Position numbers and translations under genes: made by a program
The notes under the pieces: model-generated
What the model was told of the DNA's origin: nothing
The model's database searches: none
The model's input: only the letters and a program-made list of their open reading frames with translations
NCBI RefSeq assembly: GCF_000512895.1
Contig: NZ_CP007033.1
Location: forward strand, 1,661,001 to 1,725,000
DNA length: 64,000 nt
Direction: 5' to 3'
From: Dehalobacter restrictus DSM 9455
GTDB lineage: Bacteria > Bacillota > Desulfitobacteriia > Desulfitobacteriales > Syntrophobotulaceae
In this document: piece after piece, positions 31,196 through 44,916 of the stretch
Layout of the letters: every line of letters starts with the position of its first letter
Position numbering within the stretch: position 1 is the first letter of the stretch

Positions 31196-31292
31196 CTATT
31201 ATTTACTTATTTACTCAACTTTCCCACCCTGTCGGGTAGGTTGAAACCTTGAAAGTCTTTGAAAGTATGGTTAAATACAACAAGGAAACCAC

Positions 31293-31377
31293 CAAATCTG
31301 GTATAATGAGAATAACCACAAACCCAATAATACCAGTACTTTGGAGGTTTCCTATGACCAGTATTATACCAGATTTG
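31293..31377 (+). promoter_or_regulatory. Long inverted repeat around the transposase start
   Basis: CAAATCTGGTATAAT (31293-31307) and ATTATACCAGATTTG (31363-31377) are perfect 15-bp complements. The left arm contains a TATAAT -10 box; the right arm lies inside the first codons. The loop holds the ribosome-binding site GGAGG. Read-through transcripts could fold and hide the start region. Confidence 0.65.
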
Positions 31378-32730
31378 ACGAGTAACGAAAATGCTGTTTC
31401 CTCACGAATCGATCAATATTTTATCCAGAATTCATTTTCCAAGCTCCTTAAACGTTGCAATTTTTATAAAGAATCAGGAATTCCGTGTGTGACTATTTTA
31501 AAAGAACTTTTCACCCTTGTTTTTACCGGAAAGAATCTCTTTAGAACACTTGAAATGAAACCCGAAGAATTATCTTTCCGTAAAAATACAGCCTATCGCT
31601 TCTTAAACTCCGGTCATTATAATTGGTCAAAACTCCTGTTGTTACTAGCATCTAAGGTCATTGATTTTGTTAATGGTTTGACCAGTGATGATCGGAAATC
31701 GGTACTCATTGTTGATGATTCTCTTTACAGCAGAAGTCGAAGTAAGAAAGTTGAACTGATGACTCGGGTCTTTGACCACACAACCCATAAATTTGTGAAA
31801 GGCTTTCGAATGCTGACTTTGGGCTGGTCCGATGGAAACACATTTCTGCCTATTGGTTTTTCACTCTTAAGTTCCCAGAAACCGGAGAAGATCTTGAATC
31901 CGGCCAAGCCTTTGGATAAGCGAACGATTGCTTACAAAAGAAGAACCGAGGCGATGGGGAGTACAACCGATGCTTTGATTAATCTTCTCCACTGTGCTGC
32001 TCATATTCCAGCTAAGTACGTTCTTTTTGACAGCTGGTTTGCCCATCCTAAGACGATCTTAAGGGTCAAACAAGAAAAGCGCGATGTTATTTGCATGTTG
32101 AAGATTACAGAGAAAATTCATTACCACTATAACGGAAAATGGCAGCCCCTTCAGGAACTTCGTAAATTGGCAGGTGATATTGCTGATGCTAAAACAGGGA
32201 TCATCGGTTCAATAACAGTTCAAATACGTGAGACCAAAAATATTCAAGACTTAACCGATGTGAAAATTGTTTTTGTTCAGGACAGACGATCGAAAAACTG
32301 GCTGGCCCTCCTGAGTACGGACTTGGAGCTATCTGAAGAAGAAATTGTCCGTATTTACGGCAAACGCTGGGACATAGAAGTTTTCTTCAAAGTATGCAAG
32401 TCGTATTTGGCTCTGGCTAAAGAATACCAAGGACGAAACTATGATGCTCAGGTAGCCGCAACATCCATCGTATTTCTAAGATACATTATGTTAGCAGTTG
32501 AAAGCAGAAATACTCAGGATGATAGGACAATTGGAGAACTATTTTACTATTACAGTGATGAAATGGAAGATCTCAAACTTTCTCAAGCATTAGTATTGTT
32601 AATCGACACTCTCAGGCGTGTTCTAAGCAATTTTCCTGTCATAAGCCAGGAATTAGCCAATATGATTATGGATACTTTTCTTAGCACTATTCCACGGTCT
32701 TTCAAAGAACGATTGTTGTTTGCAACCTGA
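31354..32730 (+). CDS. IS4-family transposase
   Basis: The protein of about 458 residues is a DDE transposase of the IS4 family: first Asp in VLIVDDSLYSRSRSKK, second Asp in YVLFDSWFAHPKT, and the Y-R-W-E box in IYGKRWDIEVFFKVCKSYL. ATG at 31354 follows GGAGG by six bases. The frame is intact from end to end and the element has complete inverted repeats, so it may still be active. An extra 35 codons upstream are open but unlikely to be translated. Confidence 0.92.
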   Translation: MTSIIPDLTSNENAVSSRIDQYFIQNSFSKLLKRCNFYKESGIPCVTILKELFTLVFTGKNLFRTLEMKPEELSFRKNTAYRFLNSGHYNWSKLLLLLASKVIDFVNGLTSDDRKSVLIVDDSLYSRSRSKKVELMTRVFDHTTHKFVKGFRMLTLGWSDGNTFLPIGFSLLSSQKPEKILNPAKPLDKRTIAYKRRTEAMGSTTDALINLLHCAAHIPAKYVLFDSWFAHPKTILRVKQEKRDVICMLKITEKIHYHYNGKWQPLQELRKLAGDIADAKTGIIGSITVQIRETKNIQDLTDVKIVFVQDRRSKNWLALLSTDLELSEEEIVRIYGKRWDIEVFFKVCKSYLALAKEYQGRNYDAQVAATSIVFLRYIMLAVESRNTQDDRTIGELFYYYSDEMEDLKLSQALVLLIDTLRRVLSNFPVISQELANMIMDTFLSTIPRSFKERLLFAT

Positions 32731-37244: not shown

Positions 37245-37271
37245 CCCCCAGCTGGGGGTTTTCTTTTTTTT
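37245..37271 (+). terminator. Strong rho-independent terminator
   Basis: CCCCCAGCTGGGGG (37245-37258) is followed directly by TTTTCTTTTTTTT on the plus strand. It ends transcription coming from the TIGR04086-type gene or the small RNA candidate. Confidence 0.9.
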
Positions 37272-39411
37272 ATCTGGCGAGCGCAAATTTGTTGATCCAG
37301 TTGACGATAATACGGTCTCCCTGATTCAGCTCGGTCGTAAAATGAGCTTCACTGCCATTGACCTGCATTTCCAGTTTTCCGCCCGAAATTGAGTTTTCAG
37401 CAAGATTGATATACGGAAATAGTTCCGACAAAATGGGCTTGCGCGAAAAACCTTCCACTCTGATTTCCATACCGTCTTCAATAGGCTCATCTTCCTGAAT
37501 GACCCTTCCTTTGCAGTAGATCTTTGCTTCAAACGGCGGTAAACTGAACGCTTCTCCGTTAACCGTAAAAATCATCGGTTCGGCTTCCAGCGCCAAATCC
37601 CTGATCAATATTTTTTTTTCAAGAATATCGATACGGTCGTTGTTATTAATAACACAATCAATGGTTACAGCGTGACCATTGACGATAATCTCCAGATCCG
37701 ATACCAGTTCCCGGGGCTGGTTGTTGACTTTGATTTTCTTTTTGTTGATTTTATTGATATTAATGCCTTTCATGGCCAGTAAATCATAGAGCGTTTCATT
37801 CATTTTTACAAGCAGGCTGCAGCCATCCTCAAGCCAGTCTTCTTCATTTGCCGGTTTATTGTTCAGATAGATGAACGGATTGAATTCCTCTTCCTTGCCA
37901 TCCCAGATAATCTTCTTCGCTGTGGGCCGGGAAATGACATCTTTGACCTGCGCTTTGGCATCTTCTCCGGAATGACCCGGCCTAAAGGTGACCATGTCAC
38001 CCTGACTAAGCCTCTGATCCAGCTTGGCCGACTGGCCATTGACTGTAATCACCGCTGGACTTCCCAACTCTCCTTTAATAACCTGAATCTCACCGTTTAG
38101 CTTATAGATCAGCGCCGATCCCGGACGTCCAAAAAACGTTTTCGGCTGGATGCCTGCTGCGAGAAGCCCTTCCGCCACTGTAGCAAGCTGCAGTTCAAAC
38201 AACGGAATATTCGTGTTATTCACATTGACTGCATAATAATGGAGACCTTTATTATCCAGCGCGGAAATTGCAATTCCTATCGGCGTAATGACATCCGAAC
38301 CAAACAAATCTTCTTCCTGGCCGGAGACCGCGGACAACCTTTCCCTGACTTGAATGCCGATTCTACCCCGGGAAAGATTAATCACCTTTGACAAAATATC
38401 TCCCATTAAAGGAGTAAGGCTACCTCCCCCGACCATGATCACAGCCTGGGGCGAACAGCTGTTATTCAGCAGCAGGATTTCTCCGCCGATCCTTTCGGCA
38501 ATCACCTGAACGGTCGGTTTAATGACATCCAGTATTTCCTGACGTGTGACGGAGGACCTGGCACCGAAGAAATTGACGATGTCAATCAGGCTGTTTGGAT
38601 TTGGATCGTTCCCGTTCAGCTGTTTTTTAATCCTTTCGCCTTCCTGAAAATCGACCAGATAATTGGAACAGATTGCTTCTGTGACCTCATCGCCGGCCAT
38701 GGGCACCATTCCATAAGCAAAGAAAGTGCCTTCCTTGGTAAACGCAATATCTGCAGTCCCTGCCCCGATATCCACGAGGGCCAGATTAAGTCTTCTCATA
38801 TCTCCGGGAATTGCGGCCAGTCCGGCGGCAATCGGTTCCAGCGTCAAACTGGCCATCTCAAGTCCCGCCCTTGCTAAAACTGCAATAAGGCCATCGACAA
38901 CCGTTCTCGGTAAAAACGAAGAAATAACCGTAATTTCTGCTTTTTTCCCTCTCTGCCCGACCAGCGTTGTAATCTGCTGGTCTTCGAGCAGCTGCTTCAC
39001 CGTACTGTATCCGACACAGTAGAATAGGATATTATCTGTCTCTTCAGCTGAGATTTTCTTCATGGCCTTTTGGACAGCTTCCATTTCCATGGCCAGGACT
39101 TCTTCCTGTTCCCAGTGTGTCGGCAGAACTTCCTCTCTCGTGACCGTCGCTGTTTCGGTACAAAGCGCCCTGCCTGCTGCAGCCACAGCCACTTTTGTCA
39201 ATTTGCAGTTTAGTTTATGCTCAAGTTCATGCTTTACAAATGACACGGCTTTAGCGACTTCGTTCACATCGTGAACCTGTCCGTCATACATGGCTCTTTG
39301 CGTATGTTCGGTTCGCGCACTGGCTATGACTTCATATCCCGATACACTCTTTTGCACCACAAGTCCAATAACGACCCTGGTGCCGATATCAAGGGCAAAA
39401 ACAGTCTCCAC
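37270..39411 (-). CDS. FtsA-like ATPase with long C-terminal repeat region
   Basis: The protein of about 713 residues begins VETVFALDIGTRVVIGLVVQ, an actin-fold phosphate-1 motif as in FtsA/PilM. LALVDIGAGTADIAF (phosphate 2) and IMVGGGSLTPLMGDIL (adenosine motif) complete the ATPase, about residues 1-385. The C-terminal half has about five beta-rich repeats with VNGQSAKLDQRLSQGDMV-like pattern, similar to ubiquitin-like/ThiS folds. I prefer the GTG at 39409-39411, seven bases after GAGGTGG, over the GTG at 39423. True FtsA is near 420 residues; this is a paralogue. Confidence 0.8.
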   Translation of the reverse strand: METVFALDIGTRVVIGLVVQKSVSGYEVIASARTEHTQRAMYDGQVHDVNEVAKAVSFVKHELEHKLNCKLTKVAVAAAGRALCTETATVTREEVLPTHWEQEEVLAMEMEAVQKAMKKISAEETDNILFYCVGYSTVKQLLEDQQITTLVGQRGKKAEITVISSFLPRTVVDGLIAVLARAGLEMASLTLEPIAAGLAAIPGDMRRLNLALVDIGAGTADIAFTKEGTFFAYGMVPMAGDEVTEAICSNYLVDFQEGERIKKQLNGNDPNPNSLIDIVNFFGARSSVTRQEILDVIKPTVQVIAERIGGEILLLNNSCSPQAVIMVGGGSLTPLMGDILSKVINLSRGRIGIQVRERLSAVSGQEEDLFGSDVITPIGIAISALDNKGLHYYAVNVNNTNIPLFELQLATVAEGLLAAGIQPKTFFGRPGSALIYKLNGEIQVIKGELGSPAVITVNGQSAKLDQRLSQGDMVTFRPGHSGEDAKAQVKDVISRPTAKKIIWDGKEEEFNPFIYLNNKPANEEDWLEDGCSLLVKMNETLYDLLAMKGININKINKKKIKVNNQPRELVSDLEIIVNGHAVTIDCVINNNDRIDILEKKILIRDLALEAEPMIFTVNGEAFSLPPFEAKIYCKGRVIQEDEPIEDGMEIRVEGFSRKPILSELFPYINLAENSISGGKLEMQVNGSEAHFTTELNQGDRIIVNWINKFALAR

Positions 39412-39442
39412 TTCTCTTCCCACCTCGCAAAGTTATATATCG

Positions 39443-40411
39443 TTAAATAGCCAGCTCGTTAGCCAGCTCATAGAGTTTACGGTTAAACATTTTCTTTTCC
39501 TTAAAAGCAAGTTCCAGTGGCCTGTCCACAATCTCATTTTGAAAATGTGAGATCATCACCTCAGATTTTCCCTCCATCAGTGCCTCAATGGCCTTGCCGC
39601 CCATCATTGCTCCGAGCAAAGAATCGGCTGCCGAGGGTGCTCCTCCGCGTTGAATGTGGCCGAGAATCGTCACTCGGTTTTCCAATCCGGAATAATTCTT
39701 TAAGCCTGAAGCAATTTCACGGATATCCCCTGCTCCTTCAGCACAAATAATAATACTGTGATTTTTTCCTCTCCGATATCCCCGCAGCAGTTTCTCACTA
39801 ATTTCTTGAAGATCAAAAGGGATTTCGGGCGTCAGGATCGATTCGGCGCCAATCGCGAGTCCTGAGTGGAGGGCAATATCCCCGCAGTTTCTGCCCATGA
39901 CTTCGACAAGAAAAGTCCGTTCATGGGACGAAGCGGTGTCTCTTAATTTGCTTACAGCCTCGACAACGGTGTTCACCGCCGTATCAAAGCCAATTGTTGA
40001 ATCTGTTCCGGCAATGTCATTGTCAATCGTACCGGGCACGCCAATGACTTTGATACCCAATTCAGCAAGTTTTTTTGCTCCGCGGTAAGAACCGTCTCCG
40101 CCGATGACCACGAGTGCTTCGATTCCTTTGGCCTTTAGCTGGTCCGCGGCCAGACGTTGGCCTTCAGCCGTAAACATTTCTTCACATCTGGCAGTTTTCA
40201 GAATCGTTCCGCCGCGATGCACAATATCTGCAACTGAGCCCAGCTCCATTTCTTTTATTTCACCGCGCAGAAGCCCATCATAACCATGGAAAACCCCATA
40301 TACCCGGAGATCATGGTAAATGCCCTTGCGAACAATCGCCCGTATCGCGGTGTTCATTCCGGGAGCATCCCCTCCGCTGGTTAAAACTGCAACCTTGCTA
40401 TCCGCGCCCAT
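39443..40411 (-). CDS. pfkA: ATP-dependent 6-phosphofructokinase
   Basis: The 322-residue enzyme contains the nucleotide-binding LTSGGDAPGMNTAIRA, VVIGGDGSYRGA, the catalytic GTIDNDIAGTDSTIGFDTA and EVMGRNCGDIALHSG, all typical of group I bacterial Pfk. It phosphorylates fructose 6-phosphate in glycolysis. ATG at 40409-40411 has AAGGAG upstream. The upstream DnaA-like gene overlaps its start by 14 bases, so they are co-translated. Confidence 0.96.
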   Translation of the reverse strand: MGADSKVAVLTSGGDAPGMNTAIRAIVRKGIYHDLRVYGVFHGYDGLLRGEIKEMELGSVADIVHRGGTILKTARCEEMFTAEGQRLAADQLKAKGIEALVVIGGDGSYRGAKKLAELGIKVIGVPGTIDNDIAGTDSTIGFDTAVNTVVEAVSKLRDTASSHERTFLVEVMGRNCGDIALHSGLAIGAESILTPEIPFDLQEISEKLLRGYRRGKNHSIIICAEGAGDIREIASGLKNYSGLENRVTILGHIQRGGAPSAADSLLGAMMGGKAIEALMEGKSEVMISHFQNEIVDRPLELAFKEKKMFNRKLYELANELAI

Positions 40412-41372
40412 AAGATCTCTCCTTTTCAGCATTATACAGTTTTTTACATAAAGTTTCAAACAACACCTGTTTTCTCTCCCGTATCTTTTCAGACTGATTT
40501 GTCAGACTGCCGGTGTTTTTTCGAAAATAGGATGCAATATCGCGATAGGGGTACTGAAATATCTCATGCAGCAGGAGATACACCATCTGCCTTGCTTCCA
40601 CAATCTCCCCTTTTTTCGTACTTCCCAGGACTTTGTCTTTTTCCAAACCGCAGTATTCACAAACGATAGAAACGACGAGATTGGCCTGTTCTCCGATGCC
40701 GGGAAGGTGAAATAATTTTTCGGACTGAGGTACATGGATTTTCTCCTCCGCAAAGTTTGTCGGCTGAATGTCTTTTTTTAGCTGTTCAGCGATCTTTACA
40801 GCCTGCTTCATATTTTTAATACCGGAAAGAAGCGCCGGCTGGCAGGGCCGGATCTCCTGAAACAAATCTCCGGTAAGACGATATGCGATGAAATGCTCGA
40901 GCTCCTCGGCTGCCGGGTCCTTTAAATAGAGGAAAAATCCGCTTTTAAGCCTTGATGCAAACCGCTGGTTCAAAAAGTCAAAGTTGGGTGTACTGCCCTG
41001 ATATGTAATGACCGTCTTTCCGCCTTGAGCCAGAATGGTATCTACTGTATGGAACAGTTCTTCAAGCGTTTTCTTCTTTCCTTGCAGCACATTAATATTA
41101 TCAAGCAGGAAAAGGTCATTGGAACGCACAGAACGGCGAAAGCTGTTAAGGCTGCCATTTTGGGCCGCAAACGCAAATTTCTTAGAGAATTTATCCGCAT
41201 CGATCAGGACAATCTTCACCTTTTGCGGTTTCATCTTTTGCAGGATACAATTCAGTAGCTGAGTCTTGCCCAGTCCTTCCTGGCCGGCAATTATCGTAAC
41301 CGGGGGCGCCTTTTGTACTTCATAATTCTCTATGTATTGAAAAGCTAATTGGTTGAACTGGCTGATAAACAC
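40398..41372 (-). CDS. DnaA paralogue (AAA+ plus DnaA C-terminal domain)
   Basis: The 324-residue protein shows an AAA+ module with Walker A AGQEGLGKT and Walker B LFLLDNIN, and a C-terminal helical domain (VVSIVCEYCGLEKDKVLGST ... ARQMVYLLLHEIFQYPYRDI) that aligns with DnaA domain IV. The N-terminal domain I (DnaB/DnaA-binding) and the linker are absent, and the DNA-contact signature GGRDHTTV is replaced by FRKNTGSLTNQ. It is therefore not the replication initiator; it resembles Hda or DnaC-like regulators in build. Function unknown. It is cotranscribed with pfkA. Confidence 0.75.
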   Translation of the reverse strand: MFISQFNQLAFQYIENYEVQKAPPVTIIAGQEGLGKTQLLNCILQKMKPQKVKIVLIDADKFSKKFAFAAQNGSLNSFRRSVRSNDLFLLDNINVLQGKKKTLEELFHTVDTILAQGGKTVITYQGSTPNFDFLNQRFASRLKSGFFLYLKDPAAEELEHFIAYRLTGDLFQEIRPCQPALLSGIKNMKQAVKIAEQLKKDIQPTNFAEEKIHVPQSEKLFHLPGIGEQANLVVSIVCEYCGLEKDKVLGSTKKGEIVEARQMVYLLLHEIFQYPYRDIASYFRKNTGSLTNQSEKIRERKQVLFETLCKKLYNAEKERSYGRG

Positions 41373-41502: not shown

Positions 41503-41531
41503 AAGGGTTAAGGAATATATCCCTAACCCTT
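41503..41531 (-). terminator. Hairpin after glnA
   Basis: AAGGGTTAAGGA and TCCCTAACCCTT pair over 11 of 12 positions with a 5-base loop, 45 bases after the glnA stop. On the minus strand the following TTATTCTTCC is only moderately T-rich. Confidence 0.55.
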
Positions 41532-41576: not shown

Positions 41577-42905
41577 CTAATATATTTCGAGATATCTGTC
41601 GATTTCCCATTTATGCACGGCGATGCGGAAGCTGTCATATTCTTCGGTCTTTGCTGCAACAAATCGGGAATAGATGTGCTCGCCAAGGGCATCTTTGATG
41701 ACTTCATCATTGCTTAATAGCGTTAAAGCCTCTTTGAGATCTCCGGGAAGCGAGTCAATCCCCATCTCTTTTCTTTGCCTGTCATCCATGGCAAAAATAT
41801 TCAAATCAACGGCTTCGGGCGGGTTAAGTTTCCGTTTGACCCCATCCAGTCCGGCCTTAATCTGGACCGCTAAAGCCAGATAAGGATTGCAGGAAGGATC
41901 CGGGCTTCTTAATTCAATACGGGTTGAAGAACCCCTCTTGGCCGGAATACGTATCAACGGACTCCGGTTGCGGCCCGACCAGGCAATATAGCAGGGTGCT
42001 TCATAGCCCGGAACGAGCCTTTTATACGAATTGACCGTAGGATTGGTAATCGCTGTGAAAGCCTTGGCATGCTCCATAATGCCGGCAATATAATGATACG
42101 CTTCGCTCGAAAGGTTCATCGGTCCTTCCGGATCATAGAAAACGTTTTTGCCATTTTTGAATAAGGACTGGTTGACATGCATTCCAGAACCATTGATCCC
42201 AAAGATCGGTTTCGGCATAAATGTCGCATGCAGTCCGTGCCGCTGGGCAATCGTCCGGACGACAAATCTGAAGGTGACCATTTTATCAGCCATTTCCAAG
42301 GCATCGGCATATTTGAAGTCAATCTCATGCTGTCCGGGAGCAACTTCATGATGGGAGGCTTCAATTTCAAAATTCATCTGTTCCAGCGCCAGAACCATAT
42401 CTCTTCTGGCACTCTCCCCTAAATCAACCGGTGTCATGTCAAAATAACCGGCTTTATCATGGGTAATCAGGGTCGGTCTGCCCTCAGTATCGACATGGAA
42501 CAGGAAAAACTCCAGCTCCGGTCCTATGTAACATTTGAAACCCATTTCTGAGGCTTCTGCCAGTACTTTTTTTAGTGTATTGCGGGGGCAACCGTTGAAT
42601 GGCGTCCCGTCAGGATTATAGACATCACAGATGAGTCTCGCTACCCCACCTTCAGCAGGCCTCCACGGGAAGACGACAAATGTGTCAGGGTCGGGTCTCA
42701 GGTACATGTCCGACTCCTCAATACGCACAAAGCCTTCAATGGAAGAACCGTCAAACATCATTTCTCCGTCCAGGGCTTTCTCAAGTTGTTCTACCGGAAT
42801 AGAGACATTCTTTAATACTCCGAAAATATCGGTAAACTGAAGTCTCATGAATTTTACGCCCTTTTCATACGCCTCTCGCAAGACATCTTCTTTCGTATAA
42901 TTCAA
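41577..42905 (-). CDS. glnA: Glutamine synthetase, type I
   Basis: The 442-residue enzyme has the type I-alpha length and motifs: [18 protein letters not shown], metal/ATP site [18 protein letters not shown], glutamate-binding [20 protein letters not shown] and the arginine-rich [20 protein letters not shown]. It makes glutamine from glutamate, ammonia and ATP. No GlnR-type regulator gene lies next to it; the gene is monocistronic. The short form suggests feedback inhibition rather than adenylylation, as known for Firmicutes. Confidence 0.97.
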
Positions 42906-42983: not shown

Positions 42984-43517
42984 TTATGGTTGACATGGTT
43001 CTAAATACTTTTTCAATGCTGGGTGAATATATAACAACTGACGGCTTTCCGTAACCGCAGAAAATCTTTGAATATCTTTCCCGTCAAATTGCTGCGAAAA
43101 AAACAGTTTAATCGTCGTCCTTTCGTCGTTTGTCCGCAATTCCACCTTATCAGGATAAAATAAGTAATTATACAGTTCATCGCGCCAGCTAAGCTGTAAA
43201 TTTCCTGTGGAGATCTTGATAATACCAAATTTTTCCACGAGGATGTCCCCTATTCCGGAGAAACCCTGGGTGATATTCTCAGCTTCCACCGCCATCTGAC
43301 CGGACTTAAATTTCAGGGACAGGATATGCTCAAGAATAAACCTGGCCGGCAAGGAGATTTCCTCTATCATCATCGCATACGCTTTGATTTCATCCTCCCA
43401 CTGGCGAATTTTTTCGGCATAGGCCGACTTGATCTCCGTTAAATTTTGGGTTTCTTTTTCTAAAAGACAATAAATCCGTTCAAAGCTTTCAAGCAGAACC
43501 TGATCATGATGATTCAA
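42984..43517 (-). CDS. Uncharacterised protein with N-terminal coiled coil
   Basis: The 177-residue protein starts with a helical region of heptad character (LLESFERIYCLLEKETQNLT, KIRQWEDEIKAYAMMIEEIS) and continues with an alpha/beta C-terminal part (LSWRDELYNYLFYPDKVELR, DGKDIQRFSAVTE). No signal or membrane segment. I do not recognise the family. It stands between glnA and a TPR-protein gene on the same strand. Confidence 0.6.
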   Translation of the reverse strand: MNHHDQVLLESFERIYCLLEKETQNLTEIKSAYAEKIRQWEDEIKAYAMMIEEISLPARFILEHILSLKFKSGQMAVEAENITQGFSGIGDILVEKFGIIKISTGNLQLSWRDELYNYLFYPDKVELRTNDERTTIKLFFSQQFDGKDIQRFSAVTESRQLLYIHPALKKYLEPCQP

Positions 43518-43635
43518 GTGAACATCTCCACCTTATTTTGGCTTATAATCTATTCTAACCTATTCCCAATTTTTTTCACAGTCCTTTTTCGGTATATCAG
43601 AAAGTATAATTACATTCTGAAAGTTCTAAGCGATT

Positions 43636-44916
43636 TTACCGATAAAATCGGGAGGTCTTTTTGTGATATCTGATAGTCTGGGACAAATCCTGAATCAGCA
43701 GCTCAATTTCTTTTGTTTCATCCTGCAGCGACCTGGCGTACACCAGCGCGATCCAGCCGCAGCGTAGCGCTTCCATATTTTTGCCTTTCTTCATCAAAAG
43801 ATTGGCAAGCTTTAACATCGCTTCTCCTTTCGGCAATTCCGGCTCGTCATAAAACCTTTTGCCGAGCAGTTTGTACAGATTCTCCTGAAATAAAGTATCC
43901 TCATAGCGGATAAGATATGTTAATTCCTCGCTGATTTCGCCGATCTTGGAGCTGTCACCAAAGAACTGAAAATACTTCAGAGCTTCCAGATACTGTTTTT
44001 TCGCCTCCGAGTAGTCCTGTTTCATAATCAACAGGATGGCCAGACTGTAATAGCGCACAGCAAAGCCGAATTCGCTTCCTTGATGGTATTGAATGGACAA
44101 CTCAAGGCTGCTGATTGCTTCATCCAGCAATTTCAAACATTGAAGAAGATTACTTAACATGAAATAACTTTCACTGACTTCAGGATCACGGCCGTTTTTC
44201 AAATACAGCGCGACAACTCTCTGCTGCAAAAGCAGGGCTTCCGGCAACCTGTCTTTTTCAAAGTACAAGAAGGCGATATATTGCAGCGCATTAGCCAGAG
44301 AAACTTGTTCGCCTAACCTGGCATAGATCTTCGCGGCATGATAAAATCTTTTCTGCGCCGCAATTCTCTGCGCCTGACTGTAATAGATTTCTCCCAAACA
44401 GAGGTTGATCTCTGCCTCCCCACTCAGATAACCATGTTTCCGGCAGAGATTCTCGGCATGCAGAAAATTCTCTTCTGCAGCCTGCCACTCTTTAATTTTT
44501 ATATAAACCTGGCCCAGATCGGAGTACAAGGCCGCTAAACGCAGGGATGATGCTTCTCCCGGATAGTCCCTGATAGCCTGCTTATATAAATAAATGGCTT
44601 TGGCATTCTTCCCCTGGCTGAAATAAACACTCGCCAGTCCGGCCCTGGCTTCAGCAATCCCCTTATTGTTATGCAGCTGTTTGCAGTAGACCAGTGCCCT
44701 TCGGAATCCAGCTTCGGCATCATTAAATTTGTTATTTTTCACCTGGACCGTTGCTAGCAAGCGCTGGGAAAAAGCGATAATCACCGGCATTTCCAGCGCT
44801 TCAGCCTCGAGAAGGCTTATCTGCAGACTTTTTTCAGCTTCTTCAGTGTTTCCTTCACCCAAGCATTTGATTCCATTTTCCAGATACTTCCTCCATACTT
44901 CCAGTGTGGTCTCCAT
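43636..44916 (-). CDS. Tetratricopeptide repeat protein
   Basis: The 426-residue protein is built of TPR units over most of its length (ATVQVKNNKFNDAEAGFRRA, GLASVYFSQGKNAKAIYLYK, DLGQVYIKIKEWQAAEENFL, CLGEIYYSQAQRIAAQKRFY). The pattern of longer, 36-40-residue repeats resembles the sensing domains of RRNPP-type regulators, but no helix-turn-helix is present. Cytosolic; partner unknown. Confidence 0.82.
   Translation of the reverse strand: METTLEVWRKYLENGIKCLGEGNTEEAEKSLQISLLEAEALEMPVIIAFSQRLLATVQVKNNKFNDAEAGFRRALVYCKQLHNNKGIAEARAGLASVYFSQGKNAKAIYLYKQAIRDYPGEASSLRLAALYSDLGQVYIKIKEWQAAEENFLHAENLCRKHGYLSGEAEINLCLGEIYYSQAQRIAAQKRFYHAAKIYARLGEQVSLANALQYIAFLYFEKDRLPEALLLQQRVVALYLKNGRDPEVSESYFMLSNLLQCLKLLDEAISSLELSIQYHQGSEFGFAVRYYSLAILLIMKQDYSEAKKQYLEALKYFQFFGDSSKIGEISEELTYLIRYEDTLFQENLYKLLGKRFYDEPELPKGEAMLKLANLLMKKGKNMEALRCGWIALVYARSLQDETKEIELLIQDLSQTIRYHKKTSRFYR

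Follow-up and report, generated by a model that had tools for sequence, protein, structure and literature searches.

A DnaA paralogue next to pfkA in two families of Firmicutes

The paralogue and its relationship to DnaA

The window, which means the whole stretch of 64,000 nucleotides of the Dehalobacter restrictus genome that was analysed, contains a gene for a DnaA-like protein between glnA and pfkA. It is called dnaL here as a working name. The families of the order and class were numbered: f1 is the family of Dehalobacter, f2 is the second family carrying dnaL, and f3 and f4 are sister families. The genes and the hairpin of the locus are as follows.

41577 to 42905, minus strand: glnA, from the synteny table; the upstream neighbour of dnaL in most f1 loci, not in f2
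41503 to 41531, minus strand: terminator-like hairpin between glnA and dnaL, with a 12-bp stem and -18.2 kcal/mol
40398 to 41372, minus strand: dnaL, a DnaA paralogue of 324 amino acids with a GTG start, based on the open reading frame, the Bac_DnaA and Bac_DnaA_C matches, and orthologues
39443 to 40411, minus strand: pfkA, 6-phosphofructokinase of 322 amino acids (TIGR02482, 419 bits; cut-off 371)
37270 to 39423, minus strand: FtsA/PilM-like actin-fold ATPase of 717 amino acids (TIGR01174, 2.5e-26, below the cut-off of that model), the third gene of the conserved block

A Shine-Dalgarno-like AGGGGG lies upstream of the dnaL GTG, and an in-frame stop codon lies two codons ahead of the start (TAA ACA GTG). 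Thus, domains I and II are truly absent and a hidden domain I is excluded, in agreement with the first-pass annotation, which had described a protein without domain I. In the alignment, dnaL opens with residues similar to those at which DnaA domain III starts, and the orthologues begin there too.

Both Pfam matches, Bac_DnaA (2.9e-22) and Bac_DnaA_C (5.3e-10), exceed the curated cut-offs. The NCBIfam models gave 118.8 bits for DnaA (TIGR00362; equivalog cut-off 343.9), 43.8 bits for Hda (TIGR03420; cut-off 194.8), and 22.5 bits for DnaI (cut-off 228), none of which reaches its cut-off; the DnaI/DnaC-type models together gave 22-36 bits, against 119 for DnaA. The dnaL family profile matches DnaA structures at 5e-48 across both domains, and the DnaA ATPase domain is matched by all 37 aligned members and the DnaA helix-turn-helix by 33 of them. 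The AlphaFold model (mean pLDDT 82.6, mostly above 90 up to residue 150) matches the structure of A. aeolicus DnaA at 6e-18 and that of Hda only at 2e-6. In a tree of domain III, all 24 DnaA rows form one group (support 100/100) with the paralogues of the order outside. The paralogues cluster together except for one row, possibly displaced by the very long outgroup branch, and their branches are several times as long as those of DnaA. The normal dnaA gene of the same genome (445 amino acids) lies at contig position 482, far away from dnaL at about 1.70 Mb.

By these sequence comparisons, dnaL is a lineage-specific DnaA paralogue consisting solely of domains III and IV. The identity originally proposed is borne out by the profiles, by the tree and by the predicted fold, and the profile search, with DnaA as the best match, does not place the protein in an unrelated AAA+ family. 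A chance open reading frame is excluded by the orthologues in two families and by a dN/dS of about 0.1 between close Dehalobacter. A literature search for the paralogue found no report. A phage origin was considered and rejected: the matches in phage collections show about 25% identity and resemble ordinary DnaA, some of these records look bacterial, and the PHROGs matches are weak.

A search for related loci with the single dnaL protein returned one close metagenome-assembled genome and one weak match. Among the genomes of f1 and f2, 57 of 58 have dnaL, in single copy beside a normal dnaA; a few of the matches are fragments, and the one genome lacking it is a draft in 250 contigs. It was not found in the 11 genomes of sister families searched in the same class (two of f3 and nine of f4). 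In a phylum sample of 299 genomes, matches far above the DnaA level occurred in f1 and f2 members only, and four other genomes of this sample had a second, unlisted match to the dnaL search. With few exceptions, the orthologues have an uninterrupted frame and the length expected.

Gene order and a promoter written in dnaL codons

In 33 of 40 assessable loci, representing both families, dnaL lies directly upstream of pfkA on the same strand, so that the gene order holds beyond one strain. Six loci have an insert of 1.5-2.7 kb between the two genes, and in one, pfkA is missing from the stretch. The reported 14-nt overlap with pfkA is correct, as the pfkA ATG is at 40411 and the dnaL stop codon ends at 40398. 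Of the loci tested, only three have it, all from very close Dehalobacter. In a fourth Dehalobacter the two genes share about 17 nt, and most other loci have gaps of 3 to 145 nt.

The FtsA/PilM-like gene follows pfkA in most loci, at times with one gene between, and panB and gntR are also conserved downstream in some. The upstream genes in f2 encode a LysR regulator, a peptidyl-prolyl isomerase, and DedA-like and SpoVR-like proteins (named by sequence inspection). In the sister families, accA precedes pfkA with pyk often next, or pfkA lies beside a ROK-type kinase gene (assigned by eye); the FtsA-like gene lies away from pfkA. The dnaL-pfkA-ftsA-like block therefore arose in the ancestor shared by f1 and f2. 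The FtsA/PilM-like protein itself is conserved through the class and in some of the phylum, and its C-terminal half gives weak matches of ubiquitin-like type (Mut7-C/ThiS/TGS). Of the genomes checked, those of f1 and f2 alone have its gene linked to pfkA. Upstream of glnA, a cluster conserved across f1 includes, at 42984-44916, genes for a TPR protein and for a 177-residue protein that matches no family significantly. At 31249-32730, there is a 493-codon open reading frame resembling an insertion-sequence transposase by eye.

Hairpins similar to that between glnA and dnaL, with sequence-diverged stems, were found in five relatives. Just ahead of dnaL, the window shows no good promoter. With this and the hairpin, dnaL may be weakly expressed by read-through from glnA. 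Between 36500 and 45600, Rfam gave no match to a known RNA. The signals for pfkA lie inside dnaL.

40431 to 40459, minus strand: candidate pfkA promoter, TTGAAA-17-TATAAT, an 11/12 match, in codons 305-314 of dnaL
40417 to 40424, minus strand: pfkA Shine-Dalgarno sequence AAGGAGAG, read from the sequence, within the dnaL open reading frame

The candidate promoter ends 19 nt ahead of the pfkA ATG in the window. Each of the 13 full-length f1 loci examined has it at these same codons (twelve with an 11/12 match and one with 10/12), which encode a conserved C-terminal peptide, FETLCQKLYN. Its position in dnaL is fixed, and its distance to pfkA ranges from 19 to about 77 nt. In 11 loci, none of the hexamer codons TTT, GAA, TAT, and AAT has changed synonymously, with the GAA codon replaced by an Asp codon in one; only 2 of 22 other conserved two-fold codons are frozen, and the spacer codons vary freely. 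Freezing of the four codons has a probability of about 0.001 by chance, in an arithmetic that ignores shared ancestry, and the background of such sites is 0.006 per 110 nt with the dnaL ones included. Codon shuffling genome by genome did not reach significance by itself (for the loci with the promoter, p 0.16-0.59); the freezing across genera is the stronger test. A comparable site is absent from the diverged f1 loci L042 and L056, from L045, which lacks domain IV, and from the f2 loci tested. In L043, a relic (TTCAAA-17-CATAAT) lies between the stop codon and pfkA within a remnant of the FETLCQKLYN peptide. From this pattern, it is concluded that the end of dnaL in f1 would be held partly by the pfkA promoter, and pfkA can probably be transcribed independently there from the candidate site.

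Does the overlap reflect a link between replication control and central carbon metabolism, as had been suggested? A factor coupling replication initiation to glycolysis, purposely co-expressed with pfkA, would account for the dnaL-pfkA order that prevails in two families, in contrast to the accA-pfkA order of the sister families, in which pyk often comes next. For B. subtilis and E. coli, connections of replication with carbon metabolism have been reported (PMC1866360, PMC9009071, PMC3080795). Those in B. subtilis involve DnaE and DnaC on the replication side and pyruvate kinase, among other enzymes, on the glycolytic side (PMC1866360, PMC9009071, PMC10143966), and pfkA appears just as a name in a list of pathway enzymes in the review searched; by their titles and abstracts, the published B. 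subtilis links give no specific support for a coupling of a DnaA-like protein to pfkA. Moreover, f1 has the internal pfkA promoter, six loci have inserted sequence and one has no link. The ftsA-like gene and sometimes panB and gntR are conserved downstream as well, so the linkage is not special to pfkA. Since the pfkA promoter is inside the last codons of dnaL, the 14-nt overlap is weak evidence for the proposed link, which goes unsupported beyond the neighbourhood itself; such a coupling factor is most improbable. The locus cautions that a gene overlap need not amount to functional coupling, as a promoter written in codons explains much of the linkage.

Residues kept and lost in domains III and IV

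The two domains were delimited as follows.

40773 to 41372, minus strand: AAA+ domain III, residues 1-200, from the alignment with the DnaA of the same genome and 41 orthologues and from the AlphaFold model
40401 to 40697, minus strand: domain IV (helix-turn-helix), residues 226-324, with a Bac_DnaA_C match at profile positions 3-58 of 69

The landmarks of domain III are Walker A (G30-T37), R79 and R83 in the initiator-specific helices, Walker B (D91-N92), the Arg finger (R141), and the sensor II position (K189). Walker A (three Gly and the Lys), R79, R83, and Asp91 are invariant in the 41 orthologues, and R141 is retained in 36 of them. At the position of the second Walker B acid, 17 of 21 f1 members, including Dehalobacter dnaL, have Asn, and 15 of 20 f2 members have Asp. 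Thus, the Walker motifs, first described as intact, are so only in part: Dehalobacter dnaL has a perfect Walker A and retains the first acid of Walker B, Asp, but has lost the second. The sensor 1 Asp is Gln in Dehalobacter dnaL and is essentially lost across the orthologues. The sensor II Arg, present in 24 of 24 DnaA sequences, is Lys in Dehalobacter dnaL and remains Arg in only two f2 members. In E. coli DnaA, regulatory inactivation through hydrolysis depends on this Arg, R334 of the sensor II motif (PMC3193534). By its residues, dnaL probably hydrolyses nucleotide poorly. Three f1 loci, L042, L053, and L056, form a subgroup with a shortened protein (280-286 amino acids) in which box VII departs from the usual Arg finger motif; this is possibly a further functional shift.

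Among close Dehalobacter, dN/dS is 0.02-0.11 for domain III and 0.16-0.34 for domain IV, rough values from few changes. This strong purifying selection on domain III does not fit a decaying duplicate kept only because the pfkA promoter lies inside it. Such a duplicate would explain the fast evolution relative to DnaA, the loss of catalytic and DNA-binding residues, and the genomes in which domain IV is gone, one of them with a promoter relic left. However, almost every orthologue has remained an intact frame, and f2 members keep dnaL equally, though without such a promoter; decay is therefore very unlikely.

Might dnaL be a DnaC/DnaI-like helicase loader, or another accessory AAA+ factor binding single-stranded DNA, derived from DnaA? 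Its most conserved part is domain III with the single-stranded-DNA-contact helices, and there are weak matches to DnaI and to DnaC-like phage loaders. These models score far below DnaA, however, and the N-terminal helicase-binding domain of the loaders is absent from dnaL, which makes this reading unlikely.

In domain IV, the signature GGRDHTTV of the DnaA of the same genome aligns with -RKNTGSL in dnaL, which is one residue shorter. The replacement of the DNA-contact signature is therefore true as first described for the Dehalobacter lineage, while in f2 the signature is half retained. In the following, positions are given by E. coli DnaA numbers (R399, R407, H434, and T436). The equivalent of R399, R261, is kept in all orthologues with a domain IV. 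The H434 equivalent is present in 20 of 20 f2 members and is not among the commonest residues in f1, i.e. it is lost there; f2 members also retain the R407 position and often that of T436. In L043 (G008) and L045 (G010), both of f1, the protein stops after domain III, leaving 145 and 42 nt, respectively, between its end and pfkA; these are natural deletions of domain IV. Judged by sequence, the state of domain IV in Dehalobacter is one end of a gradient across the two families, and f2 dnaL may still bind DnaA-box-like DNA.

These retained positions, with R261 in every member having domain IV, would suit a DnaA-derived transcription factor whose domain IV binds DNA and controls the neighbourhood (glnA and pfkA) or an ATP-responsive regulon. 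The loss of the H434 position and the signature in f1 and of the whole domain in two members speaks against it. Furthermore, the window has 72 DnaA-box-like sites against 57 expected, barely above chance, with no cluster at the dnaL locus. A transcription factor seems rather doubtful on this balance.

A possible initiation regulator and its closest known systems

It is possible, though somewhat short of an even chance, that dnaL is a nucleotide-bound regulator that joins or caps the DnaA assembly and restrains initiation at oriC, in the manner of Hda but separately evolved. Starting at domain III, it has no helicase- or partner-recruiting part of DnaA. The nucleotide pocket, the initiator-specific helices, and the Arg finger are kept, and residues driving ATP hydrolysis in DnaA are lost. 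The protein would stay nucleotide-bound and enter or cap a DnaA assembly through its AAA+ interface, and this would restrain initiation. Since the DNA-reading residues are gone in Dehalobacter and its kin and the whole of domain IV in two genomes, the conserved activity would reside in domain III. The adjacency of pfkA would be an inherited gene order, held in f1 by the embedded promoter. Hda and dominant-negative DnaA variants restrain initiation via the DnaA assembly. As assembly surfaces and nucleotide pocket are kept and the partner-recruiting domain and hydrolytic residues are lost, a modulator of DnaA is the simplest reading, and dnaL probably tunes the true DnaA.

YabA, the usual DnaA regulator of Firmicutes, was found in all 62 genomes searched in a class sample. 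This rules out dnaL as a replacement for YabA; rather, dnaL would add to it. Domain IV survives in most members, and the Arg399 equivalent is kept wherever it exists, which is not expected from a pure protein-binding role.

DnaA, a near-universal protein, is under strong constraint, and it is from Proteobacteria that dedicated regulators derived from it are, to my knowledge, best known. Here a paralogue fixed across two Firmicutes families has been stripped of partner-recruiting, hydrolytic, and finally DNA-reading parts. I tentatively suggest that this Firmicutes lineage evolved its own Hda-like, DnaA-derived initiation regulator, with DNA-reading, DNA-blind, and domain IV-less intermediates in living genera. 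The series offers a natural view of which initiator parts can be reused.

Among known systems, DnaA itself is the best match in every search, sharing the AAA+ domain III, the initiator-specific helices, the Arg finger, and a helix-turn-helix domain IV of the same fold. Unlike DnaA, dnaL lacks domains I and II, the sensor II Arg, and the sensor 1 Asp, and is not at oriC; in f1 the second Walker B acid is mostly Asn and the DnaA-box signature is replaced. The DnaI/DnaC loaders have an AAA+ core of the same wider clade, but the profile match is much weaker, and dnaL has a DnaA-type domain IV in place of their N-terminal helicase-binding domain. Chlamydial DnaA2 and similar second DnaA copies are full-length paralogues in the same genome as DnaA, whereas dnaL is truncated, found in two families only, and adjoins pfkA. 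Hda/HdaA of Proteobacteria is likewise a DnaA-derived AAA+ protein without domains I and II that has an Arg finger and coexists with DnaA, and two dnaL members (L043 and L045) also lack domain IV. In contrast to Hda, most members, including that of Dehalobacter, keep domain IV, and no Hda-like clamp-binding motif was recognised by eye in the dnaL N terminus, which resembles the start of DnaA domain III. Moreover, dnaL occurs in a different lineage, and both its profile matches and its fold place it nearer to DnaA than Hda.
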